Origin: Gaiellaceae bacterium | GTDB taxonomy: Bacteria > Actinomycetota > Thermoleophilia > Gaiellales > Gaiellaceae | Direction: 5' to 3' | Length of the DNA stretch: 64,000 nucleotides | Assembly: GCA_026002995.1 (NCBI GenBank) | Contig: BPGK01000001.1 | Coordinates: 1,612,001 to 1,676,000, forward strand | Part shown: positions 49,703 through 53,671 of the stretch, piece after piece | Layout: the number at the start of each line of letters is the position of its first letter | Position numbering within the stretch: position 1 is the first letter of the stretch | Notes under the pieces: generated by a model | What the model was told of the DNA's origin: nothing | What the model saw: the letters and a program-made list of their open reading frames with translations, nothing else | The model's database searches: none | Program-made: the position numbers and the translations under genes

Positions 49703-50614
49703 TCAGGCGGTAGCGACGAGCTGGTCGGCCCGTCGCAGCACGAGGTCGAGCACCTCGCCGATCGCCCGTTCGAGCGAGTTGTTGACGATGACGGGGACGT
49801 CGTGCCGATGCGCGCGCTCCACGAGGTAGTCCTGGATCTGCCGGATCTGGGGAAGAGCGTCGAGGTACTTCTCGAGCGGGCGAAGCCCGTCGGTCGCGTA
49901 GTCGCGGACCCAGAAGTGGCTCCGGTGCAGGCTCTCGTCCTCGATCGCGACGAGGCACTGGACGACGAAGGCGCCCGGCACGTCGACCGCGACCATGCCA
50001 GGCACGAGGTGGACGCCCTCGAGGACGAGCGACCAGTGCTCGGTCGCCGCGCGCTCGAGCGCAGCGTGGACGCCCGTGAGGACGTTCCGGGTCTGGTCGA
50101 GGAAGCCGAGGATCGCTGCGTCGCCCGACTCCTCCTCCTCCGCCCGCGTGAGCGCGAGACGGGCCTCGAAGCTCGAGTAGTGGACGGAGGGCATGAACTC
50201 CTCGGAGAAGAAGGCGCGCATCGTCTGCCGGATGAAGTCGGTCGACGTCACGCGCGTGATCCCCAGGCGGTACGCGGCCTCGGTCGCGATGGTCGACTTC
50301 CCGGTGCCGGTCGCGCCGCCAATAAGCAGGAGCAACGGCTCGTCGAGCTTCTGGAGGGCATCGAGCCGACGCAGGCGTCGGACGGTCGTCGCCGCTTCCT
50401 CCTCTCCGACGATCTCGGCCGCGAGCTCGCCCAGACGTTCGAGGTCGAGCGAGGTGGCACCGCGCTCGACGAGATCGCGGTCCGCGCGGCGGGCCACGAG
50501 GTACGCGCGCTCCGGGTCGAGCCCGGCCACGACGAGCGCCCGCGCCATGAGCCCCTTCGAGAAGGGCACGGCGTCCCCGAGGGGGAGCGGGATCGCGTGC
50601 CGGCGCTCGCTCAC
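49703..50614 (-). CDS. 2-phosphoglycerate kinase
   Basis: 303 aa. An ATP-cone-like N-terminal region (PLGDAVPFSKGLMARALVVAG, about 11-31) precedes a P-loop kinase domain: LLIGGATGTGKSTIATEAAY near residue 100 and SVHYSSFEARLAL. It matches the plan of 2-phosphoglycerate kinase from methanogens, which makes 2,3-bisphosphoglycerate for cyclic 2,3-diphosphoglycerate. The GTG overlaps the stop of the synthetase gene, so substrate and product enzymes are co-translated. Confidence 0.82.
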   Translation of the reverse strand: MSERRHAIPLPLGDAVPFSKGLMARALVVAGLDPERAYLVARRADRDLVERGATSLDLERLGELAAEIVGEEEAATTVRRLRRLDALQKLDEPLLLLIGGATGTGKSTIATEAAYRLGITRVTSTDFIRQTMRAFFSEEFMPSVHYSSFEARLALTRAEEEESGDAAILGFLDQTRNVLTGVHAALERAATEHWSLVLEGVHLVPGMVAVDVPGAFVVQCLVAIEDESLHRSHFWVRDYATDGLRPLEKYLDALPQIRQIQDYLVERAHRHDVPVIVNNSLERAIGEVLDLVLRRADQLVATA

Positions 50615-51867
50615 GGGAGAATTCGTGCCATGTCCAGGAGCATCCCGTCAAGGTCCGGCTCTCCGGGCAGCGCGACGACGTCGTTCGCGGCGAGGACGAC
50701 CTCGACGCCCCGAGCCTGGCCGGTCTCGGCGACGACGTCGACGGCCGCCGCCTTGAGCTCGACGAGGAACGCCTCAGCGTCGATCGCCTCGAGCTCGCGA
50801 CGCAAGGTCTCGCGGTCGGCGAGGCTGCCCGAGACGTGCGCGACGCTCAAGCCGTGCCGCTCCTCGAGGTGCGCCGCCAGCACGGCGTGGGCGCTCGGCG
50901 GAGCGGTGCAGAAGTACGCCACCCGGCGTCCACGGAGATCGCGCAACGGGCGCGGCCGGAGGACGGTCGCGACCACCTCGACGCCGGGTCGGACGACGGC
51001 GCGAGCGGCCTCGCGCACCGCCTCCCACGGGGCCTCGGCCTCGGCCATCGTCACGACGACGAGGTCTGCGATGAGGAGCCGGTACGTGTTCAAGTAGCCG
51101 GCCGCAACCGCCGGGCTCTGTGTCCCACCGACGACGAGCAGCCGCTTCCGGACGTCCACGGGCGGGATTGCTGCTCCGCTCCCGTCGAATACGACGAGCT
51201 CGGGCTCGAGCGCAACCGCCGCACGGGCCCCCGCCTCGACGTTCGACACGAACACGTCGCCGGCGAGACCGCCGCCGCAGCGTCGGCAGCCGATGGTGGC
51301 GACGCCCGTCAGCGCGGCGGTCTCGAGGTGATCGGACGCGGCGTGACGCCCAGCGCGCGAGAGCTCGACGAGCGCCTCGACGGTGGGAGGGACGAGGATC
51401 GTCTCCGGCTCGCGTGGGCCCCCGCGACCCATCGCGACCACGACGAGCCGACGCTCCGCCGAGGCGAGCCGGGCGAGGTGTCCGGTGACCGCCGTCTTGC
51501 CCACCCGCTTCCCGGTTCCGATGACCGCGATCGAGGGAAGCTCGAAGGGCGCGAAGGTAGGCGGATCGAGCCGGAAGTCGGCGCCGACGTACGGCAGGCC
51601 GTGCGCGAGCACGCGACTCGCGAGCGCGAGCCGATCTACCGGCCCCAGGACGGGCTCGTCGGAGAGGTCGACGACGACCTCGGGCGCGAACCGGGCGAGC
51701 GCATCCTCGAGCTCCGCGTGCACCGGGACGCCGTAGTGCGCGCCGCCCCGGAGCTTCTCGATGCCGCCGACGAGGACCGCGGCGACCACATCGTACGGGA
51801 GCTCGGCGATTGCGTCTGCGACGACGGGCGGGTAGTGCTCCCCGTCGACGATGGCGACGGCCCTCAC
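50611..51867 (-). CDS. cpgS: Cyclic 2,3-diphosphoglycerate synthetase
   Basis: 418 aa. N-terminal VAIVDGEHYPPVVADAIAEL, then a P-loop-type GTGKRVGKTAVTGHLARLA near residue 125, a zinc-like pair GCRRCGG, DVFVSNVEAGARAAV, and VVGGTQSPAVAAGYLNTYRL. The family uses ATP to close 2,3-bisphosphoglycerate into the cyclic diphosphate, a thermoprotectant of methanogens. Family call from recalled similarity plus the adjacent kinase. The GTG overlaps the metallophosphoesterase stop. Confidence 0.78.
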   Translation of the reverse strand: MRAVAIVDGEHYPPVVADAIAELPYDVVAAVLVGGIEKLRGGAHYGVPVHAELEDALARFAPEVVVDLSDEPVLGPVDRLALASRVLAHGLPYVGADFRLDPPTFAPFELPSIAVIGTGKRVGKTAVTGHLARLASAERRLVVVAMGRGGPREPETILVPPTVEALVELSRAGRHAASDHLETAALTGVATIGCRRCGGGLAGDVFVSNVEAGARAAVALEPELVVFDGSGAAIPPVDVRKRLLVVGGTQSPAVAAGYLNTYRLLIADLVVVTMAEAEAPWEAVREAARAVVRPGVEVVATVLRPRPLRDLRGRRVAYFCTAPPSAHAVLAAHLEERHGLSVAHVSGSLADRETLRRELEAIDAEAFLVELKAAAVDVVAETGQARGVEVVLAANDVVALPGEPDLDGMLLDMARILP

Positions 51868-52670
51868 GTCCGCGCGGTGACCTCGTCCTCGATCGCGCCC
51901 GTGTACTTGCGGTACTCGAGCGTGTCCAGGGAGAAGCTCGCCAGCCGTACCTGGCCGTGGAAGGGGTGACGCCGCCAGATGTCCACAGTCCGGTCGGCGA
52001 CCTCGATCACGTTGTAACAGGGCCGTGTGTTGCCGCGGAGGCGCAGCGAGGAGACCGTGCCGGCGTTCACGACGAAGAGGTCCTCGAGTCGCCACACGTA
52101 GGGGACGTGCTTGTGCCCGGAGAGGACGAGTCGAACACCTGCGCGCTGGAGGCACTCGATAGCGTCGCCGGCGTCGTAGACGACGTTGCGCTCGCGGCCG
52201 GTACCGGGCACCGGCAGGAGGTGGTGGTGGAGGACGAAGATGCGCAGGTCGGCCGGCTCCTCCGCGAACTGCTCCTCGATCCAGCGGTAGCGCCCACGCC
52301 CGATCTGTCCGTGGTCGAGGTCGGGCTCGCTCGAGTCGATTGCGACGATCGCGCAACCGCCCTTCCGGAGGACCGAGTTGCGGTCGCCGAAGAGCTCCTC
52401 GAAGTGGACGTAGCCGACGTTCCGCGAGTCGTGGTTCCCGGGGACGACCACGATCGAGTCGCACTGGATCCGGTCGAGGTACTCGCGCGCGGTCAGGTAC
52501 TCGTGCCGGAATCCGAACGTCGTCAGATCGCCCGAGCAGACGACGACGTCGGGCTCGAGCTCGTTGATCTCGCCGATCGCGCGCTCGAGCAGGCTCGCCT
52601 CGAAGTACGGGCCGCCGCAGTGGAGGTCGGAGATCTGCGCGATCCGAAAGACGCCGTTCGACGCGGCCAC
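51864..52670 (-). CDS. Calcineurin-like metallophosphoesterase
   Basis: 268 aa. All five metal motifs are visible: DLH in AQISDLHCGGP, GD in VVCSGDLTTFG, GNHD in VVPGNHDSRN, HHH in FVLHHHLLPVP and GHKH in LVLSGHKHVPY. First gene of the operon with the cyclic-diphosphoglycerate enzymes, so it may hydrolyse that compound or a phosphoglycerate; the family alone does not tell. TAGACT lies 6 nt before the GTG. Confidence 0.9.
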   Translation of the reverse strand: MAASNGVFRIAQISDLHCGGPYFEASLLERAIGEINELEPDVVVCSGDLTTFGFRHEYLTAREYLDRIQCDSIVVVPGNHDSRNVGYVHFEELFGDRNSVLRKGGCAIVAIDSSEPDLDHGQIGRGRYRWIEEQFAEEPADLRIFVLHHHLLPVPGTGRERNVVYDAGDAIECLQRAGVRLVLSGHKHVPYVWRLEDLFVVNAGTVSSLRLRGNTRPCYNVIEVADRTVDIWRRHPFHGQVRLASFSLDTLEYRKYTGAIEDEVTART

Positions 52671-52724: not shown

Positions 52725-53093
52725 GTGCGGGTCGAAAGCCCCGTTTTCCAGGCATATCGTGGATCCGAGCCCCCGCGCTTCGTCAACCGAAGCGAGCTCG
52801 AGTGCGCGAAGATCCTCGACTTCTACGGGATCCCCTGGGAGTACGAGCCACGCTCGTTCGTCCTCGAGCGCGACGAGGACGGGCGCGTGGTGAGCGCGTT
52901 CACGCCCGACTTCTACCTCCCCGAGCAGGATCTCTACATCGAGGTCACCGTGATGAAGCAGTCGCTCGTGACCCGCAAGAACCGGAAGATCCGAGAGGTG
53001 CAGCGCCTCTACCCGGACGTTCGGGTGAAGCTCTTCAACCGGCGGGACATCGAGCGGCTCGCCCAGCGGCTCCGTCTCCGGCTCGCCTCGTAG
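52725..53093 (+). CDS. PD-(D/E)XK-like nuclease-fold protein
   Basis: 122 aa. SELECAKILDFYGIPWEYEP is followed by FTPDFYLPEQDLYIEVTVMK (Asp and Glu near residues 67 and 77), a pattern like small PD-(D/E)XK nucleases, and then a basic KNRKIREVQRLYPDVRV stretch. The final Lys of the motif is not certain (EVT in place of ExK). It sits 2 bp upstream of Hpt and is probably co-transcribed. Function unknown. Confidence 0.6.
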   Translation: MRVESPVFQAYRGSEPPRFVNRSELECAKILDFYGIPWEYEPRSFVLERDEDGRVVSAFTPDFYLPEQDLYIEVTVMKQSLVTRKNRKIREVQRLYPDVRVKLFNRRDIERLAQRLRLRLAS

Positions 53094-53095
53094 CT

Positions 53096-53671
53096 GTGGA
53101 TCGACACGCGACGTCCTCGGAGTACGGCGAGGTCGGTGAGGTCTACCTCTCGCGCGCGGAGATCGCCGCCCGCGTCGCGGAGCTCGGCGCCGAGCTCGCT
53201 GCCGACTACGAGGGGCTCGACCCGCTCCTCGTTGCGCCTCTCAAGTCGAGCGTCGTCTTCCTCGCCGACCTGAGCCGGGCGCTCCGGATCCCGCACGCGT
53301 TCGACGTCATCGAGATCGCCCCGTACACCGGGGGCGGCGAAGGGATCCGACTCTTGAAGGACGTCGACGTGCCGCTCGCCGGCCGGCACGTCCTCGTCGT
53401 CGAGGATGTCGTGGACACCGGCCTCACGCTCCACTTCCTGCGGCGGACGTTCGCGGTCCGGGAGCCGGCGAGCCTCGCCGCCGTGACGCTCCTCGACCGC
53501 CCGTACCGGAGGCTCGTGGAGGACGTTCCCCTCCGCTACGTGGGATTCACGGTGCCGGACGAGCTCTTCGCCGGGTACGGCCTCGGGCTCGACGAGCGGT
53601 GGCGGTCGTTCCCCGATCTCCGGCTCGTGCGCGGGAACTCCCTGCCCGACGCCGTCGGCGAAGCGGCGTAA
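53096..53671 (+). CDS. hpt: Hypoxanthine phosphoribosyltransferase
   Basis: 191 aa. PRPP-binding loop VLVVEDVVDTGLTLHFLRR near residue 100, the flexible-loop/base region VAPLKSSVVFLADLSRAL near 48, and YVGFTVPDELFAGYGLGLDERWR at the hood. It salvages hypoxanthine and guanine. GTG start 2 bp after the upstream stop. It converges with the M23 gene, with 8 bp between stops. Confidence 0.93.
   Translation: MDRHATSSEYGEVGEVYLSRAEIAARVAELGAELAADYEGLDPLLVAPLKSSVVFLADLSRALRIPHAFDVIEIAPYTGGGEGIRLLKDVDVPLAGRHVLVVEDVVDTGLTLHFLRRTFAVREPASLAAVTLLDRPYRRLVEDVPLRYVGFTVPDELFAGYGLGLDERWRSFPDLRLVRGNSLPDAVGEAA

Follow-up and report, generated by a model that had tools for sequence, protein, structure and literature searches.

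A probable cyclic 2,3-diphosphoglycerate operon with a candidate hydrolase gene in an actinobacterium

Three overlapping genes and their products

The window, which is the whole stretch of 64,000 nucleotides analysed, is part of a 2.62-Mb single-contig genome and contains an operon of three genes on its minus strand at positions 49703-52670. The first gene (51864..52670) encodes a calcineurin-like metallophosphoesterase (MPE) of 268 amino acid residues, a candidate hydrolase of cyclic 2,3-diphosphoglycerate (cDPG) or of 2,3-diphosphoglycerate (2,3-DPG). It is followed by the gene for cDPG synthetase (cDPGS; 50611..51867, 418 residues) and by the gene for a 2-phosphoglycerate kinase (2PGK) homologue (49703..50614, 303 residues). 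The stop codon of the MPE gene overlaps with the start codon of the cDPGS gene in the sequence GTGA (51864..51867), and the stop codon of the cDPGS gene overlaps with the start codon of the 2PGK gene in the same manner (50611..50614). A first-pass annotation of this DNA had reported a cDPG operon with a GTGA junction between the kinase and synthetase genes. The gene coordinates that it gave are exact, and this junction is confirmed to be a 4-nt overlap, as is the MPE-cDPGS junction. Judged from the sequences, the homology of the gene products is far beyond chance and the three-gene unit is conserved across the class.

cDPGS matches the solved structures of Methanothermus fervidus cDPGS (8ORU and 8ORK) over nearly its full length (residues 3-401) with an E value of 8e-86. 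It also matches 9SXB, the aligned sequence of which is 95% identical to that of a Thermococci locus. A Pfam search detects no model for cDPGS above the cut-off. The residues of M. fervidus cDPGS that contact 2,3-DPG, magnesium or ATP are E45, K46, K145, R146, K149, T150, D208, E305, T353, E404 and K406 (PMC10690619). According to the alignment, all 11 counterparts in the window protein (E37, K38, K120, R121, K124, T125, D179, E276, T321, E370 and K372) are identical, where the 11 contacts are those that were mapped and the placement of the published P335 is uncertain. E45, K46, K145, R146, K149, T150, D208, E404 and K406 (M. fervidus numbering) are near-invariant among 110 sequences. The 2,3-DPG-binding lysine and arginine are located in the Walker A motif GTGKRVGKT (51493..51519, minus strand).

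The kinase gives its highest NCBIfam scores with both 2PGK models, PRK12337 (277 bits) and PRK04220 (253 bits), as compared to only 82 bits with the mevalonate-3-phosphate 5-kinase model. These scores are lower than the curated cut-offs of 603 and 343 respectively, and the protein is therefore termed a 2PGK homologue. The cDPGS-linked kinases of haloarchaea and Acidimicrobiia are also below the cut-off, and two Thermococci kinases pass that of PRK04220. At 44 positions, including the P-loop, residues are conserved in at least 95% of 97 bacterial and archaeal 2PGK homologues, and none of the 44 is altered in the window kinase. The gene adjoins that of cDPGS. Thus, conservation of the sequences and of the active sites gives strong support to the reading that this pair of enzymes would synthesize cDPG.

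MPE belongs to the Pfam family Metallophos (E = 2e-20). As the first-pass annotation had claimed, all of its metal motifs are present (D15/H17, D48, N79/H80, H148-150 and H186/H188), and these motifs are invariant across 35 relatives. The TGRERN loop (residues 157-162; 52185..52202, minus strand), in which the residues are at least 90% conserved, the DSxxPD motif (residues 112-117) and R212 are likewise invariant or nearly so across these relatives. Conservation of these residues would suit a substrate that is small and highly anionic. TGRERN is a subfamily signature common to MPEs of the operon, unlinked MPEs and the catalytic domains of Thermococcal MPEs. An AlphaFold model of MPE has a pLDDT of 89.5, and its nearest solved folds are those of Rv0805 and GpdQ (Foldseek E values of about 4e-15 to 2e-14). 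A membrane segment is not apparent in the sequence. In the MPE tree, the operon and archaeal MPEs cluster apart from the unlinked copies of Acidimicrobiia and of the f9/f11 genomes (99/99), and the deeper joins are weakened by long branches, namely those of the archaeal C domains and the outgroup.

Distribution and neighbours in Actinomycetota

Of 41 closely related genomes, the window genome counted, 32 encode cDPGS, as do 63 of 120 genomes from the class Thermoleophilia (one weak match left out) and about 133 of 297 Actinomycetota genomes sampled across the phylum (two weak matches left out), where the genomes counted are not phylogenetically independent. The assignment of the operon to an actinobacterium in the first-pass annotation is correct for the host, but is too narrow, because the pathway is widespread in the phylum. 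A close MPE (at least 58% identity) is encoded in 61 of the 63 class genomes with cDPGS and in none of the 57 without it, and its gene adjoins that of cDPGS where contigs allow. The two cDPGS-bearing class genomes without a close MPE (G060 and G144) both keep 2PGK. G144 is seemingly the genome that contains locus L064, since both have the same best MPE place, and at this locus the place of the MPE gene upstream of the cDPGS gene is taken by genes for a PhoU-like protein and a phosphate permease. In Acidimicrobiia, the cDPGS-2PGK pair is present without an adjacent MPE gene, and each sampled genome encodes an MPE with 49-59% identity elsewhere. An MPE relative is also encoded elsewhere in all ten sampled bacterial genomes that have cDPGS in a setting not of the Gaiellales type and without an adjacent MPE gene (Acidimicrobiia-like genomes and one of Thermoleophilaceae). 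A contig labelled Acidobacteriota (L071) contains a Gaiellales-type operon with an MPE of 72% identity, probably because of a binning error. The f9/f11 genomes (L175-L180) have MPE copies of about 50% identity away from cDPGS, and in f9 they adjoin genes that encode a heavy-metal P-type ATPase and a rhodanese.

The gene for GlpX (fructose-1,6-bisphosphatase) is located directly 3' of the 2PGK gene in 17 of 67 loci. A gene for a PiT-type phosphate permease is located just upstream of the operon in 8 loci (L038, L040, L042, L044, L045, L051, L063 and L064), 7 of which also contain a gene for a PhoU-like (DUF47) protein. The neighbours of the operon in the window include no phosphate gene, and the GlpX, PiT and PhoU-like genes are not adjacent to it. 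The gene divergent from the operon (52802-53671, plus strand) encodes a protein with a phosphoribosyltransferase domain, the N-terminal part of which is unmatched and contains the stretch TPDFYLP...YIEV, which resembles a PD-(D/E)xK nuclease motif; in about 42 loci, homologues of this protein are encoded next to the operon. In Acidimicrobiia (L055, L057, L058, L065, L066 and L074), the cDPGS-2PGK pair is located within a lysA-hom-thrC-(apgM or homoserine kinase)...rho run. The apgM-like gene that precedes the cDPGS gene in this class was dropped as evidence for the pathway, because it lies in this run and its product scores near "proposed homoserine kinase".

The genome encodes a 2,3-DPG-independent phosphoglycerate mutase (iPGM) and no 2,3-DPG-dependent enzyme (dPGM) above the cut-off. 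A role of 2,3-DPG as a cofactor of phosphoglycerate mutase is therefore rejected. The G+C content of the 16S rRNA gene is 59.9%, which is not hyperthermophile-like. Because the host is a Gaiellales-like actinobacterium, with named relatives among Gaiellaceae/Thermoleophilia MAGs, heat is unlikely to be the reason for the presence of the pathway.

Archaeal loci and phylogeny

In the Thermococci group, cDPGS is encoded in 82 of 100 genomes, and MPE in 81 of these 82. The MPE gene is located within 5 kb of the cDPGS gene in 69 of the 82 genomes, in the opposite orientation in 52 and in the same orientation in 17; the other 12 MPE genes are unlinked or on split contigs. The presence of this link in two orientations argues for repeated association. 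The Thermococci MPE is typically a fusion protein of about 505 residues, the N-terminal half of which is 38-47% identical to the window MPE and keeps all metal ligands. The C-terminal half is about 32% identical, and most of its metal ligands are changed (DxH, GNHD, the third histidine of HHH, and GHxH), with part of the surrounding loop kept. At L125, L132, L142 and other Thermococci loci, this half, which is deficient in the metal motifs and retains part of the substrate-side loop, is possibly a pseudo-enzyme. A gene for a protein with two CBS domains, possibly an energy-state regulator, is paired with the Thermococcal MPE gene, even where the latter is unlinked from cDPGS (L181, 7094-7528; L188, 5914-6327). 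At L188 (Thermococci group, G257), a gene for an archaeal-type phosphoglycerate mutase, which scores as true ApgM, is located between the MPE/CBS pair and the cDPGS gene, and 2PGK is not found at this locus.

The link between MPE and cDPGS is strong, but it is not absolute. A Haloferacaceae locus (L067) contains the cDPGS and 2PGK genes and lacks a close MPE gene, as do G060 and G144 described above. Conversely, six Thermococci-group genomes without cDPGS (G162-G164, G175, G176 and G255) carry MPE homologues.

In a tree of 67 cDPGS sequences, the bacterial sequences form one side of a branch that separates them from the archaeal ones (99/96). This split argues against a recent import of the gene, and a transfer from archaea, for which the first-pass annotation had proposed a phylogenetic check, is thus disfavoured as a recent event.

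Proposed cDPG cycle and comparison with known systems

These results suggest that the operon probably encodes a cycle in which cDPG is made and broken down as a reserve of phosphate and carbon, with MPE as the likely cDPG hydrolase. The cycle would leave glycolysis/gluconeogenesis at 2-phosphoglycerate, which 2PGK would phosphorylate to 2,3-DPG. cDPGS would then close the two phosphate groups into the anhydride ring of cDPG in an ATP-driven reaction. MPE, as a binuclear-metal enzyme, would most likely open this ring, or else remove phosphate, such that carbon and inorganic phosphate return to central metabolism; ring opening is preferred to dephosphorylation of 2,3-DPG as the step catalysed. 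Degradation of cDPG by the phosphoesterase had been suggested from the window sequence, and this suggestion is strengthened by the co-occurrence in Thermoleophilia and the linkage in two orientations in Thermococci, the context from which we infer the substrate. The location of its gene next to this pathway in distantly related archaea as well makes MPE a good candidate for the enzyme of the missing breakdown step.

The mesophile Methanobrevibacter smithii likewise accumulates cDPG. In Methanothermobacter thermautotrophicus, the regulation of cDPG fits a store of carbon and phosphate (PMC1224877). Together with the cDPG hydrolase activity of the latter organism, the GlpX and PiT neighbours and the presence of iPGM without dPGM, these observations favour storage over heat protection as the likely use in these bacteria. 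Of the two roles named in the first-pass annotation, that of thermoprotectant is therefore unlikely here, and phosphate/carbon storage better fits the neighbours of the related operons.

Alternatively, the pair may produce cDPG while MPE is a 2,3-DPG phosphatase, cDPG being consumed by reversal of the cDPGS reaction. The M. fervidus enzyme is reported to be reversible (PMC1224877), the nearest solved relatives of MPE hydrolyse phosphoesters, and the evidence from gene context holds equally for either substrate. However, a dedicated hydrolase activity for ring opening is known in M. thermautotrophicus (PMC1224877), and we regard the phosphatase reading as unlikely. That MPE merely neighbours the pathway and is a phosphodiesterase of general or unrelated function, acting for example on cyclic nucleotides, is improbable. 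Such an activity is favoured by weak matches of MPE to profiles of cAMP and 2',3'-cNMP phosphodiesterases and by the copies away from cDPGS in the f9/f11 genomes, but the almost complete co-occurrence with cDPGS in the class, the recurrence of the archaeal linkage in different orientations and the clustering of the operon and archaeal MPEs are against it. A change in substrate of the bacterial cDPGS and 2PGK homologues to another phosphoanhydride or phosphorylated metabolite is likewise improbable. The identity to the characterised enzymes is about 40%, the kinase scores below the curated cut-offs, and no assay of a bacterial enzyme was found in open-licence papers, but all mapped contacts with 2,3-DPG, magnesium and ATP are identical, the cDPGS-2PGK pair is kept together across bacteria and archaea, and the GlpX neighbours point to sugar-phosphate metabolism. 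Recent acquisition of a thermoprotectant system from a thermophilic archaeon, as might be supposed from the best-known role of cDPG in hyperthermophilic methanogens (PMC10690619), is hardly credible in view of the cDPGS tree, the spread of the gene over many actinobacterial families and the G+C content of the 16S rRNA gene.

The synthesis enzymes of the proposed make-and-break cycle belong to a known pathway. Its occurrence in bacteria and the candidate hydrolase seem not to have been described before. In agreement with the first-pass annotation, no report of cDPG or of such an operon in bacteria was found in open-licence PMC papers. A structural study published in 2023 describes cDPG as exclusive to hyperthermophilic methanogens (PMC10690619), whereas the genes for its synthesis occur commonly in Actinomycetota. 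Provided that these abundant, mostly uncultured bacteria make cDPG, it would represent a new phosphate store. MPE also provides a named gene for the breakdown step, which would close the cycle in archaea as well. Somewhat more tentatively, the MPE family may be the cDPG hydrolase of both bacteria and archaea, and cDPG a widespread, hitherto overlooked phosphate and carbon reserve of Actinomycetota that a single operon fills and empties.

MPE shares its fold and metal site with the class III cyclic nucleotide phosphodiesterase-like enzymes Rv0805 and GpdQ, but is only about 20-24% identical to them, and its family is distinguished by a conserved pathway neighbourhood and by TGRERN and DSxxPD motifs of its own, which are nearly invariant. 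The cDPG hydrolase of M. thermautotrophicus would carry out the step proposed for MPE. This activity, for which no gene is named in a review (PMC1224877), is membrane-bound and inhibited by K+ and inorganic phosphate, whereas the window MPE is without an obvious membrane segment. The cDPGS-2PGK locus of Thermococci consists of the same gene pair, with an MPE gene of the same subfamily nearby in most genomes, but the Thermococci MPE is fused to a metal-ligand-deficient second domain, paired with the two-CBS-domain gene and often encoded in the opposite orientation. The cDPG biosynthesis system of M. fervidus (8ORK/8ORU) consists of the same two enzyme families, and the mapped contacts of its cDPGS are kept in the window protein. 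The window system differs from it in that the host is a bacterium and not a hyperthermophile, that an MPE gene is joined to the pair by overlaps, and that it is known here from its genes.
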